DNA of 64,000 nt, from the NCBI RefSeq assembly GCF_014253075.1, contig NZ_JACLZJ010000001.1:992001-1056000 (forward strand). Direction: 5' to 3'. Below are positions 34,905 through 50,800 of this stretch, one piece after another. A program made the position numbers and the translations under genes. The notes under the pieces were generated by a model. It saw nothing but the letters and a program-made list of their open reading frames with translations. It ran no database searches and was not told where the DNA came from. Every line of letters starts with the position of its first letter. The first letter of the stretch is position 1. Origin of the DNA: Ochrobactrum sp. CM-21-5 (GTDB lineage: Bacteria > Pseudomonadota > Alphaproteobacteria > Rhizobiales > Rhizobiaceae).

Positions 34905-37064
34905 TCAAAGTATCGATACTTTGGTGCGTTCGGCAAGCGCCGGCAACGGCGGTGCCGTTATGAAGCGTTCGTGCAGCTCCTTGAGTATTTTTGTGGCTAC
35001 GGGTGAAAGAACGCGCGGCGGCGGCGCCATCATGTCCTCGGACTTGCCGGTACTCGCCATCTGGGGGGCAGGTGTCTTTGGCGGTACGGGGAATGGCGGT
35101 GTGACGCCGGGGATCGCCTTGAGGTCGATATTCTGGTGCGCATAGGCCATCATACGCTGCCACGCCATGGCGGGAAGGACGCCGCCGGTGAGATCTTTCA
35201 TTGGCGTGAAATTGTCGTTGCCGAACCAGACAGCTGCCGTGAAATTTCCGGTGAAGCCGACAAACCATGCGTCGCGATAGTTCTGGGTCGTGCCGGTCTT
35301 GCCCGCCACACGGGTCATGGGAAGCGCGGCGCGACGGCCGGTTCCGCGTTCGGGTACCTGAACCAGCATGGAATTCATCTCATACGCTGCATTTTCCGAC
35401 AGGGCACGGTGTGGTTTCGGTGCATCACGGGAAAAGTCCCACAACACTTTCCCATCGGACGAGACAATTTGCGTGAAACCGTGCCTGTTCCCGGCCATGC
35501 CGCCATTGGGAAAGACGTTGAAGCCGGTCGCCTGATCCATCACCGTCATCTCGGAGGTGCCGAGCACCATGGTTTTATGCGAGGAGATCGGAGATTCGAC
35601 GCCCATGGCCTTGGTCAGGGCTACGATGGGAGCGGTCGTGAGATAATCGCGTGCAAGGCGGACCGGCACGCTGTTGAGCGACCGTACGAGCGCGGTCGCC
35701 AGATCGACACGACCCGCAAAACTGCGGCCATAATTGCGGGGAGACCAGTTGCCCCAGCTGATTGGCGCATCGGAAACGATGGTGGTGGGCTTGAGGCCCT
35801 TTTCCATCGCCGCCGCGTAGACATAGGGCTTGAAGGAGGAACCGGCTTGCCGCAATGCCTTCGTGGCGCGGTTGAACTGGCTCACACCGTAGTCGCGCCC
35901 ACCGACAAGGGCGCGGACCGAACCGTCATTGGCAAGCACCACGGTTGCAGCTTCGGATACATTGTATTCCTTGCCGAACTGGCGCAGGTGGAATTCCAGC
36001 GACTCCTCGGCAGCTTTCTGGATATTGCGGTCGAGCGTGGTACGGACGATCAATGTGTGCTGGTTCAGTTTTTCCGCGACCTTTTTCACTTCCTCAAAAG
36101 CCCAGTCGAGGAAATAGTCGGGACTTTCGTTCTTGGCGCGGTCTATGACGCTTGCCGGATGGCGGCGGGCAACCGCGACCTGTCCGTCGCTCATGAATCC
36201 GCTTTCCACCATATTGGACAACACGACATTGGCGCGTGCGCGGGCGGCAGGCAGGTTCACATGCGGCGCAAACTTTGCGGGAGCCTTGAACAGACCTGCC
36301 AGCATCGCCGCTTCCGCAAGCGACACATCCTTGACGCTTTTGCCGAAGTAAAACTCCGACGCGGCCGCGATCCCGAATGTTCCGCCTCCCATATAGGCGC
36401 GGTCGAGATAGAGCTGCAGGATTTCCTTTTTGCTTAGATTGCTCTCCAGCCACAGCGCAAGAAATGCTTCCTTGATCTTGCGTTCAATGGTGCGCTCATT
36501 GGAGAGAAACAGGTTCTTGGCAAGCTGCTGCGTGATGGTGGAACCGCCCTGCACGACGCCGTTGGCGCGCATGTTTTGGCCAAGCGCACGCGTCAGTCCC
36601 ATGAAATCGATACCGTAGTGGTCGAAGAAACGCCGGTCCTCGGTGCCGAGCACAGCCTTGATGACATGATCGGGCAGTTCGTCAATAGGGACGGCCTGGC
36701 GGTGCAGAATACCGCGTTGGCCGATTTCGTTTCCGTAGCGATCAAGGAATGTGACGGCGTAATCGTCCTGGGCGCGCCAGTCCTTCCTGGTGTCCTCGAA
36801 TGCCGGTAGCGCCAGCGCAAGCATGAGAACCGCCCCGCCGACGCCGAGCGTAAAGCCTTCATCCAGCACTTCGATGACAAACCGGCGAAACCCGCGCACG
36901 CGAAAACGTCGCGAGAAAACAGTGATATTTTCCCACCATTCGCCCAGCCGGAAACGGAGATTGTAGAGGCTGGAATCGACCCAGGCGTCGAATCCGATCA
37001 GGCGTGAAACCTTGAACGGTTTGCGCTTCTTGTTCCCGGAATCTTTTTCAGCCGTTTTACGCAT
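34905..37064 (-). CDS. mrcA: Penicillin-binding protein 1A, bifunctional
   Basis: A 719-residue class A penicillin-binding protein that polymerises glycan strands and cross-links them at the inner membrane. A basic cytoplasmic tail and one helix (about 72-88) precede the GT51 domain with catalytic Glu142 in GTEDRRFFDHYG and GGSTITQQLAKN. The transpeptidase domain has Ser409 in SSFK, SLN at 462-464 and KTGTT at 589-593. The C-terminal 60 residues are proline-rich. The start is the ATG of MRKTAEKD, two codons after a GTG. Followed by the DUF1214 and DUF1254 genes. Confidence 0.93.
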   Translation of the reverse strand: MRKTAEKDSGNKKRKPFKVSRLIGFDAWVDSSLYNLRFRLGEWWENITVFSRRFRVRGFRRFVIEVLDEGFTLGVGGAVLMLALALPAFEDTRKDWRAQDDYAVTFLDRYGNEIGQRGILHRQAVPIDELPDHVIKAVLGTEDRRFFDHYGIDFMGLTRALGQNMRANGVVQGGSTITQQLAKNLFLSNERTIERKIKEAFLALWLESNLSKKEILQLYLDRAYMGGGTFGIAAASEFYFGKSVKDVSLAEAAMLAGLFKAPAKFAPHVNLPAARARANVVLSNMVESGFMSDGQVAVARRHPASVIDRAKNESPDYFLDWAFEEVKKVAEKLNQHTLIVRTTLDRNIQKAAEESLEFHLRQFGKEYNVSEAATVVLANDGSVRALVGGRDYGVSQFNRATKALRQAGSSFKPYVYAAAMEKGLKPTTIVSDAPISWGNWSPRNYGRSFAGRVDLATALVRSLNSVPVRLARDYLTTAPIVALTKAMGVESPISSHKTMVLGTSEMTVMDQATGFNVFPNGGMAGNRHGFTQIVSSDGKVLWDFSRDAPKPHRALSENAAYEMNSMLVQVPERGTGRRAALPMTRVAGKTGTTQNYRDAWFVGFTGNFTAAVWFGNDNFTPMKDLTGGVLPAMAWQRMMAYAHQNIDLKAIPGVTPPFPVPPKTPAPQMASTGKSEDMMAPPPRVLSPVATKILKELHERFITAPPLPALAERTKVSIL

Positions 37065-37215
37065 AAACACTGACTTCGGCGCTTGAGGGGTCGCAGATAG
37101 AGAGAACCAACCGTTTCATCATAGCAGATATGTAGGTCACATCTCACGTAAATTGGGTAAACGAAATGAGGGGAACTGAATTTAGGAAAAAAATCATAAA
37201 ATAGGAAATTAGTCC

Positions 37216-37244
37216 TTGACTGCGTAACGGTGGTTTGCTATGTT
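37216..37244 (+). promoter_or_regulatory. Strong sigma-70-type promoter
   Basis: TTGACT (37216-37221) and TATGTT (37239-37244) are separated by exactly 17 bp, a near-consensus housekeeping promoter preceded by an AT-rich tract. Transcription should begin near 37251. It is the best promoter-like sequence I noticed in the window. Confidence 0.7.
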
Positions 37245-37250
37245 CCTGTC

Positions 37251-37359
37251 ACAGTCGAAGAATTGCGGCTGTCGTCGGTTCAGCTACATACCCCCAGCTG
37301 GCATCGGCTATAGCAAGGCCCCGGAGAGCTCAATAGCTTTTCGGGGTTTTATCTTTTTT
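37251..37359 (+). ncRNA. Candidate small RNA or GTA leader attenuator
   Basis: Between a near-consensus promoter and a strong terminator lies a segment of about 100 nt with no open frame worth the name. A short stem CAGCT/AGCTG with a C-rich loop (about 37281-37300) precedes the terminator hairpin. This arrangement defines either an independent small RNA or a terminated leader of the GTA operon, whose first gene begins 21 bp after the T-run. I do not recognise the RNA family; the ends are approximate. Confidence 0.55.
37319..37359 (+). terminator. Strong rho-independent terminator ahead of GTA g1
   Basis: Positions 37319-37330 pair with 37335-37346 over 12 bp (two G-U pairs) around a CAAT loop, followed by TTTTATCTTTTTT. 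It stands between the promoter at 37216 and the first GTA gene, so it should limit read-through into the operon. Confidence 0.85.
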
Positions 37360-37380
37360 CGGTTGTAAAAATTGTGGATA

Positions 37381-37911
37381 ATGCACTTGAAGATTGTGGA
37401 AAAGCAAACCCGCTTCGACGCACGCATCCGGTTGGCACACCGCCTGCAGATAGAGCACGGCATCGAACTGGCCGAGATGGCGGAAGTCATGGGGTTTTCG
37501 GATGAGACTTATTATCTGCGCCTGAGGCGGCTGAAGCTGGAATCCTCGCCAGACAATTTCAACCCTGCGCGAAGGACCGCCAACAGGGTTCTGCGACGGC
37601 TGCAGGCGGAATTGAGGCATATGATCGAAGGCGAAGAACTACCCGACAAGAGCAAGGCAGAGGCGCTGATGGCTCTGGCGCGTGCGGTGAAAACCGTGAG
37701 CGAACTTTCAAATGAAGCGGATGCTTCCCGGCAGGGCGGCGACTGTGATCCGCCGCCGGTGAGCACCGGCGACGTTCGAAAGGCACTTTCGCAAATTAAC
37801 AGGAGAATAGAAGAAATTGCAGCAAAGCGCGCGCGGGAAATCCTGGGCGGCGGGCTTGACGCAAACGCAGATCGTGGCGGTGCAGCAGGAATGGCTGTTT
37901 CAGGCACGTGA
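37381..37911 (+). CDS. GTA gp1-like protein, putative small terminase
   Basis: A 176-residue protein in the position of GTA gene g1, whose product in Rhodobacter acts as small terminase subunit, binding DNA to start packaging. Residues about 12-50 form a helix-turn-helix (IRLAHRLQIEHGIELAEMAEVMGFSDETYYLRLRRLKLE), suited to DNA recognition; the rest is helical and charged. The ATG at MHLKIVEKQ was used; a TTG three codons earlier is possible. It overlaps the large terminase frame by 95 bp. First gene of the operon. Confidence 0.72.
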   Translation: MHLKIVEKQTRFDARIRLAHRLQIEHGIELAEMAEVMGFSDETYYLRLRRLKLESSPDNFNPARRTANRVLRRLQAELRHMIEGEELPDKSKAEALMALARAVKTVSELSNEADASRQGGDCDPPPVSTGDVRKALSQINRRIEEIAAKRAREILGGGLDANADRGGAAGMAVSGT

Positions 37912-39109
37912 TGCGCAATTGCCGCCATCAGGTGAATGGCGCACATGGTTGATTCTGGGAGGGCGCGGTTCGGGCAAGACGAGGGCGGGCGCTGAATGGG
38001 TTTCCGGCATGGCTCTGGGACTTGCGCCGTTTTCCCGGCTGCAATGTGGACATATTGCCCTGGTCGGAGAGACTTTTGCCGATGCGCGCGAGGTCATGGT
38101 TGACGGAGCTTCAGGCATTCTCGCTTCGTCTCGGTTGGAGCGTCCGCGTTATGAAGCATCGCGCCGGCGCCTGATTTGGGAAAACGGCGCAGTCGCGTCG
38201 CTCTATTCGTCTGAAGATCCGGATAGTTTGCGCGGGCCGCAATTCGATGCGGCCTGGTGCGATGAGCTGGCGAAATGGAAGCATCCGCAGGAAACCTGGG
38301 ATATGCTGCAATTCAGCCTGCGTCTGGGTGAGAGGCCGCGTCAGGTGGTCACAACGACGCCGCGCGCGGTTCCGCTGCTGAAGGCGCTGTTCGACGATCG
38401 CTCGGTGGCGATGACCCATATGCGCACCATGGAAAATGCGGCCAACCTCGCAGGTGGTTTCGTGGAAACCATTACGCGCCGCTATGCCGGGACGCGTCTT
38501 GGACGTCAGGAACTGGATGGCGAACTGATTGAGGAACGCGCGGGCGCATTGTGGTCCCGCGATCTGATCGAGGGATGTTTTGAGAGCGAAACGCCGCCGT
38601 TGCACCGTATCTTGGTGGCAATCGACCCGCCTGCATCGTCCGGCAAGGCGTCGGATGCCTGCGGTATTGTCGTGGCCGGAATAGATGCCGATGGTTTCGG
38701 GCACGTGTTGGCTGATGAAACGATGCAAATGGCCAAGCCCCATCATTGGGCATGCCGGGCGATTGCTCTTTATCACCGTTTCGAGGCTGATGCGATCGTT
38801 GCCGAGGTTAACCAGGGCGGGGAAATGGTGGCGGCGGTGCTGGCGGCCGAAGATGCGTCGGTGCCCGTTTTGAAGCGCCGGGCCTCGCGGGGTAAATGGC
38901 TGCGTGCTGAACCGGTGGCAGCGCTCTATGAACAGGGAAGGGTTCGGCATGCCGGGCGGTTTCCTGCGCTGGAGGACGAAATGTGTGATTTCGCGCCGGA
39001 TGGGCTTTCCACCGGACGCTCTCCCGATCGTCTTGATGCGCTTGTGTGGGCTTTGGGTGAATTGATGCTCGGCGCAGATCACAAACCACGCATCCGCCGC
39101 TTCGGCTGA
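37817..39109 (+). CDS. GTA large terminase subunit (gp2)
   Basis: A 430-residue packaging ATPase-nuclease. Walker A GGRGSGKT is at residues 48-55, the acidic Walker B region is FDAAWCDELAKW, and the C-terminal nuclease domain begins at ILVAIDPPASSGKASDACG with RSPDRLDALVWALGEL near the end. It cuts and pumps host DNA into the GTA head. The frame opens with TTG; AGGAG lies 11 bases before it, and the overlap with g1 suggests translational coupling. Intact, with no sign of decay. Confidence 0.9.
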   Translation: MQQSARGKSWAAGLTQTQIVAVQQEWLFQARDAQLPPSGEWRTWLILGGRGSGKTRAGAEWVSGMALGLAPFSRLQCGHIALVGETFADAREVMVDGASGILASSRLERPRYEASRRRLIWENGAVASLYSSEDPDSLRGPQFDAAWCDELAKWKHPQETWDMLQFSLRLGERPRQVVTTTPRAVPLLKALFDDRSVAMTHMRTMENAANLAGGFVETITRRYAGTRLGRQELDGELIEERAGALWSRDLIEGCFESETPPLHRILVAIDPPASSGKASDACGIVVAGIDADGFGHVLADETMQMAKPHHWACRAIALYHRFEADAIVAEVNQGGEMVAAVLAAEDASVPVLKRRASRGKWLRAEPVAALYEQGRVRHAGRFPALEDEMCDFAPDGLSTGRSPDRLDALVWALGELMLGADHKPRIRRFG

Positions 39110-39149
39110 AATAAATACGACTTACTGATCAACTTGGAGAGGCCACCAT

Positions 39150-40343
39150 ATGGCGTGGAATTGGCCGTGGCGCAGAAGCGCCGCGAACGAACCCGTGCGT
39201 TCCGAAATCGGGCGCGAGACCAAAATGGCGAACGGTTTCGTGGCGCTGCATGTCGAACGCGGCGCATCGTGGATTGCGCGGGATTACACGACGCTCGCCC
39301 GCGAGGGCTTCATGCGCAATCCCGTGGCGCATCGCTGTGTTCGCCTGATCGCGGAAGCGGCAAGCAGCGTCCCCTGGCTGCTTTACGAAGGGGTGACGGA
39401 ACATGAGGAGCATCCGCTTCTGGATCTCATGGCACGGCCGCAGGCCGGAGTTGACGGCAGCAGCTTTTTCGAACGGCTTTATGGGCATTTGCTGATTTCC
39501 GGCAATGCCTATGTGGAGCGCGTCGATCTGCCAAGCGGCAGGATAGAACTGCATTTGCTGCGGCCCGAACGGGTTTCGGTCGACACGGACGCAGGCGGCT
39601 GGCCACAGGCTCTGGCCTATCGGGCGGGTTCGGAGAGCAGAAGGATTTCGACTGGAACGGAAGCCTGTTCCGGCCTGCATCTGAAGCTCTTTCACCCGTT
39701 GGATGACCATTATGGTTTTCCGCCTCTCGAAGCGGCCTTGATGGCGCTCGACATCCACAATGCGGCAGGTGCCTGGAACAAGGCGCTGCTCGATAATTCG
39801 GCGCGGCCATCCGGTGCGCTGGTCTATGCGCCCAAGGAAGGCGGCAACTTGACGGAAGAGCAATTCGAACGGCTTAAGGTCGAACTGGAGGAAGGCTACA
39901 CCGGCGCGGCCGGTGCGGGACGCCCGCTTCTCCTCGAAGGCGGTCTGGACTGGAAAGCGATGGGGTACAGCCCGCAGGATATGGACTTCATCCAAGCGAA
40001 AAACGGCGCGGCGCGGGATATCGCCCTTGCCTTCGGTGTGCCGCCGATGCTGCTTGGGATTCCCGGGGATAATACCTATTCGAATTACGCGGAGGCAAAC
40101 CGGGCTTTCTACCGTTTGACTATTTTGCCGCTCATCGGACGGACCGCCATGGCATTTGGCGGATGGCTCGGCCCCCTGTTCGGCGGCGATTTGCGATTGG
40201 AATACGACGCCGACCGGATCGAAGGCCTGTCGGTTGAACGGGAGGCGCTCTGGCAGCGCGTATCGCAGGCCGCCTTCCTCACGGATGACGAAAAGCGCGA
40301 TGCGGTTGGCTATCAGCCGCATTCAGGAAGGAGAGCATCATGA
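39150..40343 (+). CDS. GTA portal protein (gp3), HK97 family
   Basis: A 397-residue HK97-type portal protein that forms the dodecameric ring through which DNA enters the head. Typical segments are FMRNPVAHRCVRLIAEAASSVPW, LLISGNAYVERV, and FGVPPMLLGIPGDNTYSNYAEANRAFYR in the C-terminal half. GGAGAGG precedes the ATG. The next gene starts in its stop codon (ATGA overlap). Confidence 0.92.
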   Translation: MAWNWPWRRSAANEPVRSEIGRETKMANGFVALHVERGASWIARDYTTLAREGFMRNPVAHRCVRLIAEAASSVPWLLYEGVTEHEEHPLLDLMARPQAGVDGSSFFERLYGHLLISGNAYVERVDLPSGRIELHLLRPERVSVDTDAGGWPQALAYRAGSESRRISTGTEACSGLHLKLFHPLDDHYGFPPLEAALMALDIHNAAGAWNKALLDNSARPSGALVYAPKEGGNLTEEQFERLKVELEEGYTGAAGAGRPLLLEGGLDWKAMGYSPQDMDFIQAKNGAARDIALAFGVPPMLLGIPGDNTYSNYAEANRAFYRLTILPLIGRTAMAFGGWLGPLFGGDLRLEYDADRIEGLSVEREALWQRVSQAAFLTDDEKRDAVGYQPHSGRRAS

Positions 40344-40717
40344 GCACCTGGAACGAAACGTTTTTTGCTTCGGACGCGGCGTGGATATGGTTTGCCAAGG
40401 TTGCAGGCGCGGTCGCTGGCTCGGCTGTGTCGCTGGCCTATATGCTGCCGCACGGCAAGCGCGAGGCGGCGATCCGTTTTGCGGTCGGGATCATCTGCGG
40501 CATGGTTTTCGGTGGCGCGGCAGGCGTGAAGATTGCCGAAACCCTCACCCTTGGCGGCACGCTTGGACGGGCAGAGCTGATGCTAATGGGATCTGCCGCG
40601 GCAAGTCTTGCAGCATGGTCTGCGCTTGGCATTTTCAAGCGGTTTTCCGAACGCATGAAGCAAGCACAACTGCCGGGAATTCTGCCTGCCGAAGGGAGCA
40701 AGAATGGCGAAGTCTGA
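40340..40717 (+). CDS. Small membrane protein in GTA cluster (DUF6107-like)
   Basis: A 125-residue protein with two or three hydrophobic stretches (AGAVAGSAVSLAYMLP, FAVGIICGMVFGGAAGVKIA, LMGSAAASLAAWSALGIF), placed between portal and protease as the small gene g3.5 of other GTAs. Its role is unknown; a membrane or assembly function is inference. It overlaps portal by 4 bp and protease by 14 bp, so it is tightly bound into the operon. Confidence 0.72.
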   Translation: MSTWNETFFASDAAWIWFAKVAGAVAGSAVSLAYMLPHGKREAAIRFAVGIICGMVFGGAAGVKIAETLTLGGTLGRAELMLMGSAAASLAAWSALGIFKRFSERMKQAQLPGILPAEGSKNGEV

Positions 40718-41393
40718 TCTGAAGCTTGAGACCAAGCGAACAGCACTCGCCATTGAGGATGTGGAACTCGATGGCAGCTTTTCCGGCTATGCGAGTGTCT
40801 TCGGCCTGGCAGATCTCGGTCATGACGTGATCGAGCGCGGCGCGTTTTCGGGCGCGCTTCGCGAACGCGGTGCGTCCGGTATCCGCATGTTGTGGCAGCA
40901 CGATGCCGCCGCTCCAATCGGAGTCTGGACGGCGATCCGTGAAGACGCGCGCGGCCTTTACGTCGAAGGCAGGCTCGCCAAGGGCGTGACGCGGGCGCGC
41001 GAGGCGCTGGAACTGATGCGTTCGGGCGGGCTTGACGGTCTTTCCATCGGCTTTCGCACGGTGAAGGCCCGCAAGGATGCGCGCACCGGCCTGCGCCACA
41101 TCATGGAAGCAGACCTCTGGGAAATTTCGGTCGTCACCTTTCCGATGCTGCCGCAGGCGCGCGTCAGCAGCGTCAAGGCGGGCTTGCCGACGGTCAGACA
41201 ATTCGAACGCTGGCTCACGCGGGATGCGGGGCTGAGCCGTGCTGCCGCACGCACCGTTATTGCTAAAGGCTATGCGGCGCTTGCGGGTATGCAAAACCGG
41301 GAGGGGCGGGATGCCGACCGGATAAACGAGGCAGGTCTCGCACAGCTTATGCGTGACGCCTCAAAAGCTATGATTCAAAACCACAATCGATAG
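40704..41393 (+). CDS. GTA prohead protease (gp4), HK97 family
   Basis: A 229-residue prohead protease that trims the N-terminal part of the capsid protein during head maturation. SFSGYASVFGLADLGHDVIERGAF and IRMLWQHDAAAPIGVW contain the conserved histidine; GLSIGFRTVKA and LWEISVVTFPMLPQA carry the serine and the family signature. GAAGGGAG precedes the start. Confidence 0.92.
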   Translation: MAKSDLKLETKRTALAIEDVELDGSFSGYASVFGLADLGHDVIERGAFSGALRERGASGIRMLWQHDAAAPIGVWTAIREDARGLYVEGRLAKGVTRAREALELMRSGGLDGLSIGFRTVKARKDARTGLRHIMEADLWEISVVTFPMLPQARVSSVKAGLPTVRQFERWLTRDAGLSRAAARTVIAKGYAALAGMQNREGRDADRINEAGLAQLMRDASKAMIQNHNR

Positions 41394-41400
41394 GAAATTA

Positions 41401-42675
41401 ATGGAAAACATCCCTGCCATCCCGCTCGAAACCAAGAGCGTGGAATCGAAGTCGCTTGTTCAGAATCTGGGCAGCGACGGTGACGTCACTGAAGCTTTCG
41501 GTGAATTCATGACGGCCTTCACCGCCTTTCGGGAAGCCAATGACGAGCGGTTGGACAAGGTGGAAAAACATGCCGGCGCAGATGTGCTTATTCGTGAAAA
41601 GGTGGATCGCATCAACCGCGCGCTTGATGAGCAGAAGCAGGCGCTCGATCAGTATGTGCTGAAACAGGCCCGCCCACAATTGGGGCGCGGTGCGCCGGTC
41701 GTCAATATCGAACACAAGCAGGCCTTTGACGGTTATGTGCGCAGAGGCGATGAACAGCATTTGCGCGGTATCGAGCAGAAAGCGCACTCCTATGCTTCGG
41801 GTCCGGATGGCGGCTATCTTGTCCCCGCTGAACTGGAAACCGAGATTGGACGCAGGCTCGCCGTTCTGTCGCCGATCCGCGGTATCGCCAGCGTGCGTCA
41901 GGTGTCGGGCGCGGTTCTGAAGAAACCATTTTCGGTCAGCGGTCCGGCGGTCGGCTGGGTCGGCGAAACCGATGCGCGTCCGCAGACCGCATCCGCCAAA
42001 CTTGCCGAGCTTCAGTTTCCGACCATGGAAATCTACGCCATGCCCGCAGCGACCTCTTCACTGCTGGACGATGCAGCGGTGAATGTCGAGCAGTGGATTG
42101 CCGAGGAAGTGGAAGCGGCCTTCGCTGAACAGGAAGGCGCGGCCTTTGTCGCGGGCGATGGCGTTAACAAGCCGCGTGGTTTCCTGAACTATGATTCCGT
42201 TTCCGATGATATCTGGGAATGGGGCAAGCTCGGCCATGTCGCGACCGGCACTGAAGGTGCTTTGCCGGAGGAAGCGCCATCCGATAAGCTGATCGAGCTG
42301 ATTTATACGTTGAAGGCCGGCTATCGCCAGAACGCCAGTTTTGTCATGAACCGCAAGACGCAAAGCATGCTGCGCAAGCTGAAGGACAATGACGGCAACT
42401 ATCTTTGGCAGCCGCCGTCTGCCGTCGGTGAAAAAGCCTCGCTGATGGGCTTTGGCCTGGTTGAGGCGGAACATATGCCGGATGTGGCCGTAGATGCTTC
42501 CGCCATCGCGTTCGGTGACTTCGGGCGGGGTTATCTGGTGGTGGACCGTATCGGCGTCCGCATATTGCGCGATCCATACTCCGCCAAGCCTTACGTGCTC
42601 TTCTACACCACGAAACGCGTTGGCGGCGGCGTGCAGGATTTCAATGCGATCAAGCTTCTGAAGTTTGCGGCTTGA
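41401..42675 (+). CDS. GTA major capsid protein (gp5), HK97 fold
   Basis: A 424-residue capsid protein. Residues 1 to about 110 form a helical scaffold-like delta region (EANDERLDKVEKHAGADVLIREKVDRINRAL) removed by the protease; the mature part starts near HSYASGPDGGYLVPAELE and has the HK97 fold (PQTASAKLAELQFPTMEIYAMPAATSSLLDDA). It forms the small head of the GTA particle. Three hairpins follow the gene, which fits a need for separate control of this abundant product. Confidence 0.94.
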   Translation: MENIPAIPLETKSVESKSLVQNLGSDGDVTEAFGEFMTAFTAFREANDERLDKVEKHAGADVLIREKVDRINRALDEQKQALDQYVLKQARPQLGRGAPVVNIEHKQAFDGYVRRGDEQHLRGIEQKAHSYASGPDGGYLVPAELETEIGRRLAVLSPIRGIASVRQVSGAVLKKPFSVSGPAVGWVGETDARPQTASAKLAELQFPTMEIYAMPAATSSLLDDAAVNVEQWIAEEVEAAFAEQEGAAFVAGDGVNKPRGFLNYDSVSDDIWEWGKLGHVATGTEGALPEEAPSDKLIELIYTLKAGYRQNASFVMNRKTQSMLRKLKDNDGNYLWQPPSAVGEKASLMGFGLVEAEHMPDVAVDASAIAFGDFGRGYLVVDRIGVRILRDPYSAKPYVLFYTTKRVGGGVQDFNAIKLLKFAA

Positions 42676-42682
42676 CGGGAAA

Positions 42683-42700
42683 GACAGCGGTTTTGCTGTC
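42683..42700 (+). terminator. Hairpin 1 after major capsid gene
   Basis: GACAGC-GGTTTT-GCTGTC, a 6-bp stem starting 8 bp after the stop codon. Its loop sequence is the same as in the next hairpin. Likely a weak terminator or an mRNA-stabilising end. Confidence 0.5.
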
Positions 42701-42727
42701 AGTTCTCGCAGGCTCATTTTCGCCATT

Positions 42728-42745
42728 CCTGCCGGTTTTGGCAGG
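42728..42745 (+). terminator. Hairpin 2 after major capsid gene
   Basis: CCTGCC-GGTTTT-GGCAGG, a 6-bp stem with the same 6-nt loop as hairpin 1. Confidence 0.5.
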
Positions 42746-42746
42746 T

Positions 42747-42774
42747 AGATTCACCGCGCGAACAAGGTGAATCT
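42747..42774 (+). terminator. Hairpin 3 after major capsid gene
   Basis: AGATTCACC (42747-42755) pairs with GGTGAATCT (42766-42774), a perfect 9-bp stem with a 10-nt loop. The tail TTCC is poor, so partial termination or RNase protection is more likely than full termination. Confidence 0.5.
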
Positions 42775-42833
42775 TTCCATGGGGTTCCAAGCGTAACTAT
42801 CTGATTTGAAAGTTATCTTTTAGGGGAAAATCA

Positions 42834-43400
42834 ATGACAATGTTTCTTGTCACGCCACCGGCGCTGGAGCCGGTGACGATCGCCGACGTGCGCGCATTTT
42901 TGCGGATTTCTACCGAAACAGAGGATGAAATCCTCCAGCGCCTGATAGCGACGGCGCGCGAGCTTATCGAGGCCGAGACTGGTCTGTCGTTGATCGAGCA
43001 GACCTGGCGGCTGCGTGTGGACCGTTGGCCGCGCTCCGGACGACTGGCGATTTTCAAGTATCCGGTCAAGGCGGTCACTGCGGTTGTCGCCTATAAGCCG
43101 GACGGCACCGCCATCAGTTTTTCACCGGAAGAGTTTGTCCTGCACCATGGCAAGCGACCGCAGCGCCTTTATATGGCGCAGTATCCTGATGCCTCGTCTT
43201 TTGAAGGTATCGAAGTGGATTTCATTGCCGGTTTCGGGGAAACCGGCGTCGATGTGCCGGACGCGCTGAAGCAGGCCATTTTGACCCTCGTCGCACACCT
43301 TTATGAAAAGCGCGCCGGTATCAACGCCGACGCCAGTCCTGCGTCTTTCCCGCTCATGGTCAACCAGATGGTCGATAGTTGGCGGCGGGTATCCTTATGA
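42834..43400 (+). CDS. GTA head-tail connector (gp6)
   Basis: A 188-residue adaptor of the phage gp6-like head-tail connector family. The helical N-terminus (EPVTIADVRAFLRISTETEDEILQRLIATARELIEAETG) is characteristic; the middle has WPRSGRLAIFKYPVKAV and the end FIAGFGETGVDVPDALKQAI. It joins the portal ring to the tail. Preceded by AGGGGAA after the hairpin region; overlaps g7 by 4 bp. Confidence 0.88.
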   Translation: MTMFLVTPPALEPVTIADVRAFLRISTETEDEILQRLIATARELIEAETGLSLIEQTWRLRVDRWPRSGRLAIFKYPVKAVTAVVAYKPDGTAISFSPEEFVLHHGKRPQRLYMAQYPDASSFEGIEVDFIAGFGETGVDVPDALKQAILTLVAHLYEKRAGINADASPASFPLMVNQMVDSWRRVSL

Positions 43401-43735
43401 ACAATGTACTTTTCATTGATCCGGGCCAGCTCACATCCGAGCTGGCTCTGGAGGCGATGCTGCCTATCGCTGACGGGATGGGCGGCTATACCGAAAAATG
43501 GTCGGAGGTTGCCATGGTCTGGGGGCGGGTGGAACCGGTTTCCAGCGCGCAGAAATATTTCGGCACACGGCCCCAACCAGAGGTAACCCACCGCGTTCTT
43601 TTGCGGTTTCGCGATGACATTTCTACAGACAAGCGGCTGCGCAAGGCTGGCAGGGTTTTCGCTTTGCACTCGGTGTACGATCCGGACGAGAGCGGGCGTT
43701 ACCTGATCTGTCTGGCGACGGAGGAAGGGCGATGA
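43397..43735 (+). CDS. GTA head closure protein (gp7)
   Basis: A 112-residue head-tail joining protein (MLPIADGMGGYTEKWSEVAMVWGRVEPVSS; KYFGTRPQPEVTHRVLLRF), the Phage_H_T_join family that plugs the portal after packaging. The ATG inside the ATGA overlap with g6 was used. Confidence 0.85.
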   Translation: MNNVLFIDPGQLTSELALEAMLPIADGMGGYTEKWSEVAMVWGRVEPVSSAQKYFGTRPQPEVTHRVLLRFRDDISTDKRLRKAGRVFALHSVYDPDESGRYLICLATEEGR

Positions 43736-43745
43736 ACACCAGCCG

Positions 43746-43940
43746 ATGAATATCACGATGAAGCTAACTTTCGACGGGCTTGTTCGGGTGCTGCGCTGGA
43801 AGGCGTTCGATGCCGGCGAGACCGTCGCGTTGGAACGCCACAGGCTGGAACGCGTGAGAACCGACGCTGATGATATCGATATGGCAATCGGGGGAAAGCA
43901 TGACGAACGGAGCAGTAGCATTGCAGAAGGCCCTGTTTGA
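43746..43940 (+). CDS. Possible small ORF between g7 and g8
   Basis: A 64-codon frame (MNITMKLTFDGLVRVLRWKAFDAGETV) fills the 164-bp gap between g7 and g8 and runs 41 bp into g8. The first 45 residues have the look of a real protein (amphipathic, charged), and the gap is otherwise unexplained in a cluster with almost no spacing. The ribosome-binding site is poor. I do not recognise a family. Confidence 0.4.
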   Translation: MNITMKLTFDGLVRVLRWKAFDAGETVALERHRLERVRTDADDIDMAIGGKHDERSSSIAEGPV

Positions 43941-44310
43941 GGTCCTTAAGAATGACGACGAACTGATTGAAACACTCGGCGGTGAACGGGTTTACGACCA
44001 CGTTCCGCCCAGGACGCCTTTTCCATATGTCACGCTTGGCGAGACGGCGAGCCGCGACTGGAGCACCGCCAGCGAAAACGGTGGCGAGCATTTTCTGAAT
44101 ATACAAATCTGGGCGAGGGAAAGCGGTCGCAAGCGGGTGCTGGACATTGCGGGCCGCATTGCGACGCGGCTCGATGAAGGGCCGGTTGATGTCAATGGGC
44201 ATCGGCTCATCAACCTGATGCTGACCGAAGTTCTCGCTCGTAACACCGACGGTCTTGGCGGCTATCTCGGCACGATGCGCTACCGCGCCGTTACCGAGCC
44301 TGCAATCTGA
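43900..44310 (+). CDS. GTA tail completion protein (gp8, DUF3168)
   Basis: A 136-residue DUF3168 protein (ALQKALFEVLKNDDELIETLGGERVYDHVPPRTPFPYVTLGE; FLNIQIWARESGRKRVLDIAGRI), which forms the interface between head connector and tail tube. GGGGAAAG precedes the ATG at MTNGAVALQ; the frame is open ten codons upstream. Confidence 0.87.
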   Translation: MTNGAVALQKALFEVLKNDDELIETLGGERVYDHVPPRTPFPYVTLGETASRDWSTASENGGEHFLNIQIWARESGRKRVLDIAGRIATRLDEGPVDVNGHRLINLMLTEVLARNTDGLGGYLGTMRYRAVTEPAI

Positions 44311-44326
44311 CATCCGGGAGAAATTG

Positions 44327-44740
44327 ATGACAGCTCAAAGAGGCAAGGATATCTTGCTGAAGACGGCGCGCGATAACGGCTCGTTCGAGACTTGCGCGGG
44401 CTTGCGTACCAAGCGCATTGCCTTCAATGCGGAAACGGTTGATGTGACCGATGCCGACGCCGCCGGACGCTGGCGGCAGCTTCTGGCCGGGAGCGGTGTG
44501 CAGCGCGCTTCGGTGAGCGGCTCGGGGATATTCAAGGATGCGGCATCGGATGCATTGATACGCAGCATATTTTTCGATGGTGAGATCCGCGACTGGCAGA
44601 TCGTCCTTCCTGATTTCGGCACGGTCAATGGTCCATTTCAGATCACTGCGCTTGAGTATGGCGGCAATCACGATGCCGAGGTGACATTCGAAATCGCATT
44701 GGAGTCTGCGGGACTGATCGCATTCGGAGAAGCGCTATGA
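44327..44740 (+). CDS. GTA major tail tube protein (gp9)
   Basis: A 137-residue major tail protein of the TP901-1 type (MTAQRGKDILLKTARDNGSFETCAGLRTKRIAFNAETVDVTDAD; GSGIFKDAASDALIRSIFF; NHDAEVTFEIALESAG). It polymerises into the tail tube. GGGAG is six bases before the ATG. Overlaps g10 by 4 bp. Confidence 0.9.
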   Translation: MTAQRGKDILLKTARDNGSFETCAGLRTKRIAFNAETVDVTDADAAGRWRQLLAGSGVQRASVSGSGIFKDAASDALIRSIFFDGEIRDWQIVLPDFGTVNGPFQITALEYGGNHDAEVTFEIALESAGLIAFGEAL

Positions 44741-45084
44741 TGGTCAATCGCCATCGCGGCGAGGTCGGAGCCAAAATCGATGGCCGCGACTGGACGCTCT
44801 GCCTGACGCTCGGCGCGCTTGCCGAACTGGAAACAGCTTTCGAGGCAGACAATCTTGCTGATCTTGTTTCCCGCTTTTCGACGGGGCGGCTTTCGGCCAG
44901 CGACATGCAGCGCATCATTTGCGCGGGCTTGCGCGGAGGTGGGCATGCCGTCAGTCCTGCTGACGTTGCAGATATGCGGGCGGAAGGCGGCGTCGCCGGG
45001 TTCGCACGCATCGTGGCGGCACTTCTGAGCGCTACTTTCGGGGTCTCCGAAAAAGCGGAAAGTGATTCCCTTTCAAACCCCTGA
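44737..45084 (+). CDS. GTA tail assembly chaperone (gp10)
   Basis: A 115-residue protein of the GTA tail assembly chaperone family (NRHRGEVGAKIDGRDWTLCLTLGALAELETAFEADNLADLV). It starts in the stop codon of the tail tube gene. It ends SLSNP, with the sequence A-AAC-CCC-TGA at the stop, and the frame of the second chaperone (g10.1) continues in the -1 phase; see the next entry. Confidence 0.87.
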   Translation: MMVNRHRGEVGAKIDGRDWTLCLTLGALAELETAFEADNLADLVSRFSTGRLSASDMQRIICAGLRGGGHAVSPADVADMRAEGGVAGFARIVAALLSATFGVSEKAESDSLSNP

Positions 45085-45296
45085 ATGCCGCAGTTGAATC
45101 AAAACATGCGCCGCAGCCTTTTCCGTGGGATGAGGTCATGCGGGCAGGATTTGGTTTGCTGCGGCTGTCTTCACAAAGCTTGTGGTCCATGACCCCGCGC
45201 GAGCTTGCTGCCGCGCTGCGTCCCGTAGTACGCACCGATGACGCGCCCTCCCGCCAGACGCTCGACGCGCTGATGCGCGCTTTCCCAGATAAGTAA
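45081..45296 (+). CDS. GTA second tail assembly chaperone (gp10.1)
   Basis: A 71-residue frame with the conserved chaperone motif PFPWDEVMRAGFGLLRL followed by LWSMTPRELAAAL, as in the rcc01693-type family. No ATG, GTG or TTG lies between the last upstream stop (45063) and the FPWD motif; an ATG at 45138 would cut off that motif. The only candidate is CTG at 45081, in a CTGA overlap with the g10 stop codon, exactly where other GTAs would have ATGA. The alternative is a -1 frameshift from g10 at A-AAC-CCC, as used by lambda G/T chaperones. Product identity is firm; the start is not. Confidence 0.75.
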   Translation: MNAAVESKHAPQPFPWDEVMRAGFGLLRLSSQSLWSMTPRELAAALRPVVRTDDAPSRQTLDALMRAFPDK

Positions 45297-45318
45297 AATT
45301 CCTCGCAGGTGATTTTTC

Positions 45319-45864
45319 ATGACAGACGAAACGGTAACCGTCTCCGTCGATGCGGATACGAGCGCGTTTGATCGCGCCTTGACGGATCTTGAGAAGCGCT
45401 CGTCGCGTTTCGGCAACAGTCTGACTTCGGCGCTGAAAGGGGCTATCGTCTCCGGAAAGGGCCTTGAAGACGTATTGCGGGGGCTTGCTTCCGGTCTCGC
45501 AGGCTCGGCGCTTTCCGCAGGACTGCAACCGTTGCAGGGCCTGACATCATCTGTGATGTCAGGTCTCTTTGGTGGTCTCAGGGGCATCATGCCTTTCGCC
45601 AAGGGCGGCGTCGTTTCCAGCCCCACCTATTTCGGCATGGGTAACGGCTCGCTGGGGCTGACGGGCGAGGCGGGTGCAGAAGCCATATTGCCGCTGGCGC
45701 GCGGAGCGGATGGCCGTCTCGGTGTGGCGACTGGCGGTGGCGGCAAGCCGGTGCAGGTCGTCTTCAACATGAAGACGCCCGACGCGACATCGTTCAATAA
45801 ATCGCAGGCGCAGCTTTCCACCATGCTGGCAGGCGCGGTACGTCGCGGCGCGCGGAGGCTCTGA
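45319..45864 (+). CDS. GTA tail tape measure protein (gp11), very short
   Basis: A 181-residue tape measure protein. The N-terminus (TVTVSVDADTSAFDRALTDLEKRSSRFG) is the usual helical start, the middle is hydrophobic and glycine-rich (GLASGLAGSALSAGLQPLQGL), and the C-terminal FAKGGVVSSPTYFGMGNGSLGLTGEAGAEAILPL is the conserved motif of short tape measures. Such a length implies a short tail. AGGTGA precedes the start. Confidence 0.88.
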   Translation: MTDETVTVSVDADTSAFDRALTDLEKRSSRFGNSLTSALKGAIVSGKGLEDVLRGLASGLAGSALSAGLQPLQGLTSSVMSGLFGGLRGIMPFAKGGVVSSPTYFGMGNGSLGLTGEAGAEAILPLARGADGRLGVATGGGGKPVQVVFNMKTPDATSFNKSQAQLSTMLAGAVRRGARRL

Positions 45865-46499
45865 TGATGGCTGTGGCTTTTCACGATGTGCGCTTTCCGC
45901 TCGGCGTTTCGTTCGGCGCGACGGGCGGACCGGAATGGCGCAACGAGATCGTCACGCTGACGTCCGGTATGGAAAAACGTAATGCGCGCTGGGCGCATTC
46001 CCGCCGCCATTTCGATGCCGGTACGGGCCTGCGCTCGCTCGACGATCTCAGAACGGTTCTGGCTTTTTTCGAGGCGAGGCGCGGTTCACTCCACGCCTTC
46101 CGCTTTCGCGATCCATTCGATTTCTCGTCCGCGACGGGGAACCTCGCACCGTCGCCATTCGATCAATCGATAGGCATGGGAGACGGGAGAGCGGCAAGCT
46201 TCCAACTCGTCAAGCGCTACGAGACTTACCAGAGGCCGATCGTGCGCCCCGTGACCGGTTCTGTGGTGGTCGGTATTGGTGGCGCGCAGGTGCCTGAAGG
46301 TGAGGCCTTCGCGGTCGATAACACAACCGGTATCGTGACTTTCACGGCAGAATACCTGCCGGCGGATGGTGCCGCGATTACCGCCGGTTTCCTGTTTGAT
46401 GTCACGGCGCGGTTCGATACAGATCGGCTTTCTGCTAGCATTGCCTCGTTTCAGGCCGGTGAAATCCCTTCAATTCCCATCATTGAGGTCAAGGCATGA
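45864..46499 (+). CDS. GTA distal tail protein (gp12, DUF2460)
   Basis: A 211-residue DUF2460 protein (FPLGVSFGATGGPEWRNEIVTLTSGMEKRNARWAHSRRHFDAG; LAFFEARRGSLHAFRFRDPFDF), the distal tail hub component. The start is one of two consecutive ATG codons overlapping the g11 stop. It overlaps g13 by 4 bp (ATGA). Confidence 0.9.
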   Translation: MMAVAFHDVRFPLGVSFGATGGPEWRNEIVTLTSGMEKRNARWAHSRRHFDAGTGLRSLDDLRTVLAFFEARRGSLHAFRFRDPFDFSSATGNLAPSPFDQSIGMGDGRAASFQLVKRYETYQRPIVRPVTGSVVVGIGGAQVPEGEAFAVDNTTGIVTFTAEYLPADGAAITAGFLFDVTARFDTDRLSASIASFQAGEIPSIPIIEVKA

Positions 46500-47371
46500 T
46501 CCCGGTTCCGGCAGCACTTGAATCACATTTGCAGGGCGAGGTGACAAGCCATTGCTTCGCCTGGCTTATAAGGCGTCAAGATGGCGTCGCGCTTGGCTTT
46601 ACCGATCATGACCGGACGCTGACGGTAGAGCAGATTGCCTGCGATCCGCAAACCGGATTGAACAGCAGCGAGGCTTCCACCGCGCTTGGGCTTTCCATTG
46701 CAGGCGGCGAGGTCGAAGGAGTGCTTTCCTCCGCGAAGATAAGCGACACGGATATCGAGCAGGGCCGCTATGACGGTGCTGTCATTGAAGCCTATCTCGT
46801 CAATTGGGCGGAACCTGCCCAGCGCATGCTTTTAAGGCGATGGACGGCGGGCAAGATCAGCCGGTCTGGCAGTCGTTTCATGATGGAGTTGAAAGGAGCT
46901 GCCGCAGTTTTCGATGCGGTGCGCGGGCGGCGTGTCTTGCGTCATTGCGATGCAGGTCTCGGCGACAGGCGCTGCGGCGTGAACGCGGATGATCCGTGTT
47001 ACTCCGCTGATGGAACCGTGCTGACGACGCAGGGTGTAAACCTCGCGGTTTCGGGCATTGATCATTTTGAGAATGGCTGGTTCTCCGAAGGCCGTCTTGT
47101 GTGGGCGAATGGAAGCAATGCCGGGCGCAGCTTTCGCGTGCTGCGGCATGGCGGGGACACTTTGCAACTAAGCGAACCGCCGGTCTTGCCAGTTGCGGCG
47201 GGCGATGGCTTTCGTATTATCGCCGGTTGCGACAAGAGCTTCGCCACCTGCAAGGCAAAATTCGCCAATGGGGTCAATTTTCGCGGCTTCCCACATCTGC
47301 CGGGTAATGACGCGGCTTACGCCTATATCAATGGCGCGGCTGAGTATGACGGGAGCGCACTGATCCCATGA
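46496..47371 (+). CDS. GTA tail hub protein (gp13, DUF2163/BR0599)
   Basis: A 291-residue hub protein with an N-terminal DUF2163 domain (LESHLQGEVTSHCFAWLIRRQDG to about 160) and a C-terminal domain of the family named after Brucella suis BR0599 (GCDKSFATCKAKFANGVNFRGFPHLPGNDAAY). The C-terminal cysteines (CDKSFATC) and CDAGLGDRRCGV may bind metal; in RcGTA this protein carries an iron-sulfur cluster. Overlaps g14 by 4 bp. Confidence 0.9.
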   Translation: MIPVPAALESHLQGEVTSHCFAWLIRRQDGVALGFTDHDRTLTVEQIACDPQTGLNSSEASTALGLSIAGGEVEGVLSSAKISDTDIEQGRYDGAVIEAYLVNWAEPAQRMLLRRWTAGKISRSGSRFMMELKGAAAVFDAVRGRRVLRHCDAGLGDRRCGVNADDPCYSADGTVLTTQGVNLAVSGIDHFENGWFSEGRLVWANGSNAGRSFRVLRHGGDTLQLSEPPVLPVAAGDGFRIIAGCDKSFATCKAKFANGVNFRGFPHLPGNDAAYAYINGAAEYDGSALIP

Positions 47372-47814
47372 GCCGGAGTGTGATTGTCGCCGATGCGGTT
47401 CTTGCGGAAGCGGAACGCTGGATCGGTACACCATACCGGCATGGAGCATCCGCCCGCGGCATCAGTTGCGACTGTCTGGGTCTCGTTCGTGGCATCTGGC
47501 GTGCGCTTTATCGAACCGAACCGGAAAGCCCTGGTACTTATGCGCCTGACTGGGCGGAAGCCGGAAATGGCGACCCTTTGCTGGAGGCAGCGTCGCGCCA
47601 TATGTTGGCGCGCGAAGGTATTGAGCCTGAGCCGGGTGATCTCATCATCTTTCGCTGGCGGGCCGATGTCGCGGCCAAGCATCTTGGCATCATGGCGGAC
47701 GGAAACCGTTTCATCCACGCCTATCAGGGCCACGGCGTTCTGGCCTCCGCTCTGGTGCCGCAATGGCGAAAACGCATTGCCGGTCTTTTCATCTTCCCCG
47801 AACTGAAAGCGTAA
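47368..47814 (+). CDS. GTA cell-wall peptidase (gp14, NlpC/P60)
   Basis: A 148-residue NlpC/P60 cysteine peptidase that opens peptidoglycan when the GTA docks on a recipient. The catalytic cysteine is Cys36 in ISCDCLGLVRG, and the histidine lies in AAKHLGIMADG. Start inside the g13 stop codon. Confidence 0.92.
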   Translation: MSRSVIVADAVLAEAERWIGTPYRHGASARGISCDCLGLVRGIWRALYRTEPESPGTYAPDWAEAGNGDPLLEAASRHMLAREGIEPEPGDLIIFRWRADVAAKHLGIMADGNRFIHAYQGHGVLASALVPQWRKRIAGLFIFPELKA

Positions 47815-47817
47815 TTC

Positions 47818-50800
47818 ATGGCAACGGTAGTTCTGCAAGCAGTTGGCGCGGCGGTGGGCGGTATTTTCGGGCCTGTCGGTGCGGCTATCGGTGCCGGTGT
47901 TGGCGCGATGGGCGGCTATGCCATCGACAATGCGCTCATCAATTCAACACGGCATATCGAAGGCGCGAGGCTGAACGGCGGTCGCGTGGCCACAGCAGAA
48001 GAGGGCGCAGCACTGCCTTTCGTCTACGGCACGGCGAGGGTTTCGGGGACGCTGATCTGGGCGACGCGTTTCGAAGAGGACAAGACCACCACGCGGCAGG
48101 GTGGCAAGGGCGGGCCGAAGGTCACCAATTACAGCTATTTTGGTAATGCTGCCTATACGATTGCGGAAGGCGAGATCGCAGGCATTCGTCGTGTCTGGGC
48201 GGACGGACAGGAACTGGACCTCACCGAAATCGAGATGCGGGTTTATCGCGGTACGCAGACACAACAGCCCGACCCGCTGATCGAGGCGAAACAGGGGGGT
48301 GGAAATGCACCGGCCTATCGCGGCACTGCCTATGTGGTTTTCGAGCGCATTCCGCTGGATGGGTTTGGCAATCGTCTGCCGCAATTCCAGTTCGAGGTCA
48401 TGCGCCCGGTCGGCCAGGTCACGCGCAATCTGCGTGCCGTGGCGCTGATCCCCGGTTCGACGGAGTTTGGCCTTATGCCCGATCCGGTGAACGATGAGCC
48501 GGTTCCCGGCGAGAAGCGCTGGATCAACCGTAATGCGACACGGGCCAGAAGCGACTGGAATGGCGCGCTCGATGAATTGCAGGCGCTTTGTCCCGATCTG
48601 CGTCACGTGGCAATCGTGCTGCCATGGTTCGGCGACGATCTGCGGGCCGGTCATTGCCGCATTCGCCCCGGTGTGACCGAGTTGGAAGCGCGCAAACCTA
48701 GCCATGTCTGGAAAGTGGAGGAGGTTTCGCGGGCACAAGCGCATTTCATTTCGCGAAACGGCGAGGGCGCGGCCTATGGCGGTACGCCGTCTGATGCAAG
48801 CGTGATCGCGGCTATCCGCGATGCGAAGGCGCGCGGGCTTGGCGTAACGCTGTATCCGTTCATCATGATGGACATACCGGCGGGCAACACCTTGCCGTCG
48901 CCTTACGGCGGAACAGGGCAGCCGGTCTATCCTTGGCGCGGGCGCATCACCTGCCACCCGGCGATTGGCTCCCAAATGACACCGGACAAAACGCCAGCGG
49001 CGGCGGAACAGGTAGCAGCCTTTGTCAATGGAGAATGGGGTTACCGTCGCTTCCTTCGCCATTGCGCAGATCTGGCTGTAGCGGCGGGAGGCGTGGACGC
49101 TTTTTTGATCGGCTCGGAATTGCGCGGCCTGACAAGCATCCGGGACGGGCGCGACAGTTTTCCATTTGTATCCCACCTTTGCACCCTTGCAGCCGAAATT
49201 CACGGCAAACTCGGAGCGCGATGCCGTATCACCTATGGTGCCGATTGGTCGGAGTATTTTGGGTATCAGGCACAGGACGGCACGGATGATCTCTTCTTCA
49301 ACCTTGATCCGCTCTGGTCGCATCCGGCTATAGATGCGGTTGGCATAGACAATTACATGCCGTTGGCCGATTGGCGTGACAACGATCTTGATAACGGTAA
49401 TCCCGATCGTTTCGAGACGGCCTGCGACCTTGACGGTCTTGCGCGCAATATTGTGTCGGGTGAAGGATATGACTGGTATTACGCCAGTGCGGAAGACCGT
49501 GCGGCCCGCCGGCGAACTCCGATCACCGACGGGATGGCGGGTAAGCCGTGGGTCTATCGCTACAAGGATCTGAATGCGTGGTGGAGCAATCCGCATTACA
49601 ACCGGATCGGCGGCGCGGAAGCGGCGCAACCGACAGGCTGGGTGCCAATGTCGAAACCCTTCTGGTTTACCGAGCTCGGCTGTCCGGCGGCGGACAAGGG
49701 GCCGAACCAGCCCAATGTGTTCCCTGATCCCAAATCGTCGGAAAATGCCACGCCCTATTTCTCGAACGGATCGCGGTCGGACATTGCAATGAACCGCTTT
49801 CTGCGCGCCCATTATCGCCACTGGCAATCGGGCGGAACTGCAAACCCGGTTTCGCCAGTCTATGGCGGGCCGATGCTGGACAGCGAGCGGATCTATCTTT
49901 GGGCATGGGACACACGGCCATTTCCAGAGTTCCCGCTTTGCGCAGATGTCTGGGGCGACACGGCCAACTGGCGTCTCGGGCACTGGCTTAACGGTCGTAT
50001 CAGCGGTGTTGCGCTGGATGAACTGATCGCCGCCATTCTTGCCGATTTCGGTCTGCCCGATGCCGATTGCAGCGGGGCTGACGGTCATCTGGCTGGTTTC
50101 GTCATATCGGAGCCGTCAACGGCTCGCGGTATTCTGGAGCCGCTGTTGAATATTTTCGGCGTGCATGGTTTCGAACAAGCGGGTCGGTTCGTGTTCAGGA
50201 GCATTGCGCGTGCGGCCCCCACGCTCGCCATCGGCGATACGCTGGTGCTGCCCGATGACGGCGAAGCGCTGACGACGGAACTGGAAGACGCAGGCGACCT
50301 GCCAGCCGTGGCCGAGTTTTACTGCAATGATCCGTTGCGCGACTTTCAGATTGCCGGTGCTTCGGCCCGGCGCGTTGCAGGACATGGCACCGAGAGCCTC
50401 AGCCTGTCCGGTTCCATGGAAACGGGACAGGCGACGGCACTGGCTGAAAGCTGGATGGCGCGTCGCCATGCGGAACGGCGGACTGCGAGTTTCGCTTTGC
50501 CGTGGTCATCCGCGGCAATTCACGTCGGCGACCGCGTCCGTCTCGACGTTCTGGACGGCGAACGCGATTATGTCGTGACCGCACTGGATGACGGAGCCAC
50601 GCGAGCCGTAAAGGCGGCGGCACTCGCCCCCAATGTTGTCTTTGCGGATCGGGATAAGACGCCGCAGCGTCCGCCCGGCGGCCTGGCACTGGACATGAAG
50701 CCGGTCTTTCATCTGATCGACCTGCCGCTGTGGCCAGGCGCAGAGGTTCCCGCCGAGCAACTCCGCATTGCCTGCCACGCCAGGCCGTGGCGTGGTGCGG

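Follow-up and report, generated by a model that had tools for sequence, protein, structure and literature searches.

The window analysed here, a 64-kb stretch of the genome of Ochrobactrum sp. CM-21-5, contains at 37216-37380 a promoter, a leader of ~100 nucleotides (nt) and a terminator, immediately ahead of a structural gene cluster of an RcGTA-like gene transfer agent (GTA). All three components are confirmed at these places. Comparison with relatives strongly supports the identity of this promoter as a GTA-operon element across the order Hyphomicrobiales, and we estimate a probability of about 0.65 that the GTA operon is transcribed from this promoter through an attenuated leader that GafY/GafZ anti-termination opens, the Brucella small RNA (sRNA) BSR1350 being the terminated leader.

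Organization of the locus

The promoter lies on the + strand and has the near-consensus form TTGACT-N17-TATGTT given in the initial annotation, with the -35 element at 37216..37221 (CTTGAC if the preceding base is included; recovered by consensus scan and in a stack of 151 loci described below), a 17-nt spacer, and the -10 element at 37239..37244, whose first T and A are invariant in the 151 loci. Read as CTTGAC-N17-CTATGT, the same promoter is near what we take to be the rhizobial sigma-70 consensus. Promoter spacing predicts transcription from A37251, the first base of a conserved initially transcribed region (37251..37267, +) that is the last well-conserved part outside the genus. Abutting the -35 element is a block, TAGGAAATTAGTCC (37202..37215, +), whose identity across the 151 loci reaches 94% or more at 12 of 14 positions and which is a candidate site for a GafY-like activator; 5' of this core promoter is an A-rich stretch (37183..37201, +), possibly an UP element or bending site, whose A residues are weakly conserved in the stack and better conserved in the genus. 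The pattern TAGGAAAWTARTCC has one exact match in the 4.28-Mb genome plus two at one mismatch (the backwards pattern, as a control, gives two), and the promoter block is a single site in its own genome, which rules out a common repeat.

The leader RNA is predicted to fold into hairpin 1 (37251..37272, +; also in the genus consensus), hairpin 2 (37274..37308, +), whose loop carries ACAUACCCCC and which is seen in the fold of the window's leader and is absent from the 29-row genus consensus, and an intrinsic terminator (37315..37360, +) found by scan, fold and genus consensus alike. The last consists of a hairpin at 37315-37350 and a U-rich tail, T-rich in the DNA to 37359; the hairpin and T-run first described are there, although the stem has 16 pairs when folded rather than 12. 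The first open reading frame (ORF) begins with TTG at 37372, 21 nt past the terminator stem as had been noted, with the first ATG at 37381, and the leader is free of + strand ORFs of at least 80 codons, in agreement with the reported lack of a coding frame.

Consensus scans of 36000-40000 do not by themselves rise above chance (two promoters versus 1.5 in shuffles; one terminator versus 4.6). Above chance are the fold stability of the leader (z = -5.06, with 0/200 shuffles equally stable), a match to the Rfam family RF02612, and the conservation of the DNA among relatives. No alternative anti-terminator fold was seen in the leader, the centroid being identical to the minimum free energy (MFE) structure.

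Downstream lie g1 (37372..37911, +), which has no Pfam match and is kept beside the large terminase gene in the genus, g2, the large terminase (TerL; 37817..39109, +; PF03237, PF17289), and the rest of the structural cluster (39150..51633, +), in which the portal, capsid and GTA_TIM proteins are recognized by Pfam and the other ORFs by position. These four Pfam matches place large terminase, portal, capsid and GTA_TIM genes in the order that defines an RcGTA-like GTA. A divergent penicillin-binding protein (PBP) gene (34905..37070, -; PF00912, PF00905) flanks the other side. About 14 kb upstream of the promoter is a pair of putative regulators, a GafY-like gene with a DnaA-type helix-turn-helix (HTH) domain (22020..22481, +; PF08299, E 8.4e-15) and a GafZ-like DUF6456 gene (22445..23269, +, likely starting at ATG 22484; PF20057, E 5.5e-47), preceded by mucR (20776-21351).

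Conservation of the promoter

Searched against 60 genomes, the DNA of 37130-37420 has matches in 37, its own among them: 34 of the 35 in the genus, which we take to be Brucella as GTDB defines it (Ochrobactrum, Falsochrobactrum and others included), and three outside it. A promoter model built from 30 loci (R1) matches 301/394 family genomes in 87/109 genera, and one built from 107 loci (R2) matches 219/397 in a draw of order genomes, in 91/142 genera; searches of more than 40 genomes (family, order and class) used stricter filters, and misses are possible. In the class-wide draw R2 matches only 4/270: the genome analysed here, two other members of the order, and a fourth at E 8e-4. As far as this draw shows, the promoter block appears confined to the order Hyphomicrobiales.

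We read 151 family loci, 29 from the genus and 122 others, which are the best-scoring matches and are thereby biased to good ones. The 29 are those with sequence from the first relatives search, which also gave one locus of another genus (L029); the matching genus genomes G014, G016, G017, G019 and G027 have no locus in the set. Stacked without gaps, the 151 loci are conserved from 37202 to ~37271 (near +17 to +21), where conservation ends. The conserved parts are TAGGAAAATARTCC, CTTGAC, the spacer, the TAG of the -10 element and an A at the predicted +1 that never varies; the first 17 nt are conserved too, as is TAYNGTC at -1 to +6, the region considered for a sigma-dependent pause element of the lambda Q type. 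Beyond the genus, conservation is limited to the promoter (about -50 to +17) and does not extend to the RNA body, hairpin 2 or the terminator sequence.

Two variations are seen among order loci. Loci L201-L211 (G674, G640, G054, G549; one genus) are dispersed, weaker copies of the block away from GTA, and nearly all genomes of that genus have 2-12 matches in the order search; the copies at L205 and L209 lie upstream of what resembles a BrnT/BrnA toxin-antitoxin pair, and the set may be either a regulon or a repeat that has spread. In certain families elsewhere in the order (L204, L208, L210, L212, L214 and L216), the A predicted as +1 begins an ATG, which may represent a leaderless start, and in some of these the ATG opens an ORF before the terminase.

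Linkage of the promoter to GTA

GTA_TIM is present in 289/394 family genomes, and its distribution follows that of the promoter: both are found in 273 genomes, the promoter only in 28, GTA only in 16 and neither in 77, an odds ratio of 47. The large terminase is downstream on the same strand in 132/151 family loci within the first flanks, at a median of 708.5 nt from the block; a wider fetch of 10 of the 19 loci without it recovered the terminase in all 10, at 1.4-1.8 kb, for a total of 142/151. The other nine are three genus-mates that lost GTA (G001, G009, G018), L030 (portal pieces and no terminase match), L105 (capsid instead of terminase), and four loci where the contig or fetched stretch ends within about 1.4 kb. 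In the first flanks g1 is downstream in 33/151 loci. In genome G050 the GTA is split into three segments (TerL; portal and protease; capsid), each with its own promoter copy in front (L200, G050:C13:346500-363000). It is because of TerL adjacency, co-occurrence and the split GTA that we link the block to GTA, and the test proposed in the initial annotation, linkage to GTA loci in relatives, came out in its favor.

The PBP gene was considered as the cause of the conservation and rejected. It adjoins the element in 28/29 genus loci, and in the first flanks it is beside 48/151 loci (14/100 with 0.7 kb of upstream sequence and 34/51 with 1.5 kb). In 20 wider stretches, 10 chosen for having no TerL and 10 for having no PBP, TerL was found in 20/20, while 12 have PBP at 0.6-3.3 kb upstream and the other eight show none within 8.5-9 kb. 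It is a regional neighbor rather than a constant adjacent one, and from these comparisons the block appears to travel with GTA rather than with PBP.

Seven of the 35 genus genomes lack GTA_TIM. One, G010, has no promoter match, and the six that keep the promoter all have a GTA fragment downstream in the 15-19-kb stretches that were read: in G012 and G023 there are pieces of many GTA genes, in G017 a piece of g3.5, and in G001, G009 and G018 (L034, L032, L033) the only remnant of the cluster is a continuous ~122-aa match to g3.5, 350-410 nt behind the promoter. An element independent of GTA was rejected on this ground. The ~122-aa g3.5-like remnant has perhaps been put to another use.

Terminators and folds in the leaders

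Terminators were sought in 185 leaders, the 151 family loci and 34 hand-picked order loci, at +20 to +220 under a strict rule, which was set after a loose rule (+0 to +300) whose upstream control equaled shuffles. Under the strict rule 56/185 leaders have a forward terminator, versus five on the reverse strand, five upstream, 11 at +220 to +420 and 4.1 in shuffles; counted by 130 clusters of unrelated leaders, the figures are 39 forward versus three reverse. The window's own terminator passes. An order of promoter, predicted stop and GTA is shown in this way to recur in leaders of unrelated sequence.

A consensus fold of 19 chosen genus leaders has three hairpins and 31 pairs, 13 with compensatory changes. 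This set omits 10 genus loci, excluded by eye and in the case of L004 for no good reason. When all 29 are used, the consensus is reduced to hairpin 1 and the terminator stem, with 14 pairs, seven of them with compensatory changes, and 18/29 leaders contain the hairpin 2 loop motif ACCCCC. Hairpin 1 retains at least 6/7 pairs in 22/29 genus loci versus 17/122 other family loci, and was discarded as a signal beyond the genus, where its pairing is mostly lost. Genus-wide retention of hairpin 1 and the terminator stem suits attenuation; hairpin 2, confined to part of the genus, leaves room for an sRNA role, whose odds are slightly lowered by the loss of this hairpin from the 29-locus consensus.

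The spacer inverted repeat and GafY/GafZ-like regulators

Between the -35 and -10 lies an inverted repeat, CTGCGT-A-ACGGTG (37220..37232, +), a candidate GafZ loading site with 4/6 pairs in the window. Some relatives have a perfect CACCGT-N-ACGGTG or CAGCGT-N-ACGCTG in the spacer, and CNSCGT-N-ACGSTG is perfect in 48/187 loci and has at least 5/6 pairs in 90/187, compared with 0 and 20 of 9537 at other centers (187 of 188 loci were counted, one being dropped because its -35 was not recognizable). Evidence of complementary substitution at the repeat's variable pair is no more than suggestive (p 0.09). In Caulobacter, the only target of GafZ is the GTA promoter, where it binds a palindrome between -10 and -35, and it enables polymerase to run past terminators (PMC11150451). 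Of the features of a GafY/GafZ-controlled promoter, the two protein types are encoded in the window, and the inverted repeat between -35 and -10 is present in the family and order set.

Hyphomicrobiales carry gafA as two separate genes, one of them DnaA-like, with mucR upstream of the pair, and in R. capsulatus GafA acts at the promoter through the omega subunit of RNA polymerase (PMC9638019). DUF6456 is present in 322/394 family genomes and in 294/301 of those with the promoter; promoter, GTA_TIM and DUF6456 are all present in 268/394 and all absent from 62. In 53 cases, picked by eye, that have both on one contig, DUF6456 precedes the promoter by 9-33 kb, and in 52 of them the two share a strand. 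Among 14 control genomes the DUF6456 search matched Caulobacter alone. As to IHF, the upstream region of the 151-locus stack contains only the A-rich stretch, no search having been aimed at an IHF motif.

Relationship to BSR1350

The element matches the full RF02612 (BSR1350) model, positions 1-176, at 37180..37359 (+; E 6.7e-15 for the 501-base stretch searched). The score of 78.2 bits falls below the gathering cut-off of 216, and the whole window has no Rfam match at gathering score; the element is a homologue of BSR1350 that lies outside the family by Rfam's own rule. RF02612 also matches 8/17 of the relatives' loci tested. The available part of the BSR1350 study in Brucella melitensis reports an RNA predicted between two genes and positive by Northern blot, at a lower level in an hfq mutant and without co-transcription with its neighbors by reverse transcription PCR; rapid amplification of cDNA ends is described there for another sRNA, BSR0602, rather than for BSR1350 (PMC4365724). 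The term gene transfer agent is absent from the main text of the literature found on BSR1350. The RF02612 model appears to count ~70 nt of promoter as RNA. In one relative, a match to RF02604 (BASRCI153, another Brucella sRNA) below gathering score lies directly 3' of the BSR1350-like leader (L026:1248-1385, -).

A model for GTA operon control and its alternatives

From the promoter identity, GTA linkage, inverted repeat and recurring predicted stops shown by comparison, we infer start site, termination, GafZ loading and anti-termination in this window as follows. Polymerase starting at the promoter would normally stop at 37350-37360, giving the ~100-nt RNA known in Brucella as the sRNA BSR1350. 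Once the GafY/GafZ-like pair is made, the GafY-like protein would help to recruit polymerase, and GafZ would load at the -35/-10 inverted repeat during an early hold-up of polymerase. Modified in this way, polymerase could then pass the leader terminator and transcribe the 14-kb cluster, in the manner of Caulobacter GafZ and lambda Q. The attenuator and anti-termination scheme first put forward is favored by the terminators in unrelated leaders, the GafY/GafZ-like genes and the spacer repeat, and is only partly borne out, as 129/185 leaders have no terminator in the strict scan.

Several further observations weigh against this model. By set, strict terminators number 7/29 in the genus, 38/122 in the rest of the family and 11/34 in the order; many genus-mates have a hairpin without a clean U-tract; and the loose rule gives a weak excess (83/151 versus 22 reverse, 34 upstream and 34.5 in shuffles). 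The window's own spacer repeat has only 4/6 pairs, and the Caulobacter ZBE has a different sequence. The rhizobial block is nearly absent from the class draw (4/270, three of them in the order; a model search rather than a direct alignment with Caulobacterales promoters). The bias of the 151 loci makes the logo look better than it is, and related sequences cannot be counted as independent. PBP being regional in 12/20 wider stretches, the region is partly syntenic. Six of the seven genus genomes without GTA_TIM keep the promoter, and 28 genomes have DUF6456 and no promoter match, 15 of them also without GTA_TIM.

The absence of strict terminators from so many leaders also suits a simpler scheme, in which GafY/GafZ recruit polymerase to a plain activator-controlled promoter and the terminator trims leakage without any anti-termination, much as R. 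capsulatus GafA works at the promoter via RNA polymerase omega (PMC9638019). We regard this as unlikely, since forward terminators in unrelated leaders are ~5-fold more frequent than in the stretch further downstream and 11- to 14-fold more frequent than on the reverse strand, upstream or in shuffles, and anti-termination has been shown for the homologous Caulobacter system (PMC11150451). A leader whose fold is switched in cis by a bound ligand, protein or small RNA could draw on the hairpins conserved in the genus, yet no RNA sensor is conserved outside the genus, the window is without an Rfam match at gathering score, and no anti-terminator fold was seen, centroid and MFE structures being identical, all of which makes such an RNA-based attenuator very improbable.

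The remaining alternative is an autonomous, Hfq-dependent sRNA, BSR1350, that acts in trans and merely sits beside GTA, its C-rich loop pairing with the ribosome-binding sites of targets. In its favor are the full-length RF02612 match, the Northern signal, lower level in an hfq mutant and lack of co-transcription in B. melitensis (PMC4365724), the three-hairpin fold with 13/31 compensatory pairs in the 19 chosen sequences, and the persistence of promoter and leader in genus-mates that lost or are losing GTA. Conservation points the other way: outside the genus the promoter is conserved and the RNA body is not, and within it hairpin 2 drops out of the 29-locus consensus and ACCCCC is limited to 18/29. 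The promoter, moreover, precedes TerL in 142/151 loci and each piece of the split GTA, and the 36000-40000 scan has no other + strand promoter-like site. We consider such independence rather improbable, and the earlier suggestion of an unrelated small RNA gene finds no support as worded, for although the RNA is a known sRNA, its promoter is the GTA promoter.

An sRNA and an attenuated leader are compatible. It is conceivable, if doubtful, that ordinary cells keep the GTA promoter active and that in part of the Brucella lineage the terminated leader became a trans-acting, Hfq-linked sRNA, kept for a while after the phage genes decay; a single RNA would then represent the off-state of a domesticated phage and at the same time regulate the host. 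GTA genes are widespread in Hyphomicrobiales, yet no paper on a Hyphomicrobiales GTA promoter was found by title or abstract in the open-licence literature. An order-wide promoter block, often with a predicted built-in stop, would offer a direct handle on the timing of particle production; it would also tie a Brucella sRNA of unknown role to GTA, and make GafZ-type anti-termination testable outside Caulobacter.

Comparison with known systems

The GTA cluster is homologous to that of RcGTA, and the order of mucR and a split gafA described for Hyphomicrobiales is seen here; R. capsulatus GafA is a single protein, tied to omega, and the available part of that work does not mention an attenuated leader (PMC9638019). 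BSR1350 corresponds to the element end to end, below the gathering score of its family. If the anti-termination model holds, the element would resemble the systems of Q at the lambda late promoter and AlpA of Pseudomonas in having a loading site inside the promoter, a terminated short RNA, and an operon silent until anti-termination. The lambda late promoter combines a short terminated RNA with an early pause.

A close parallel is PgtaT of Caulobacter crescentus, which is governed by GafY, IHF and GafZ. The available part of its description draws the binding-site comparison of GafZ with lambda Q-type anti-terminators, and reports GafZ to be without sequence or predicted structural similarity to known anti-terminators (PMC11150451). 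The Caulobacter -35 is AATCAT and its terminator, terGTA, follows the first gene, whereas here the -35 is near consensus and the terminator precedes the first gene (PMC11150451). The two promoters are alike in their GafY/GafZ-type regulators, in an inverted repeat between -35 and -10, and in a long untranslated leader with a terminator to be bypassed early in the operon (PMC11150451).
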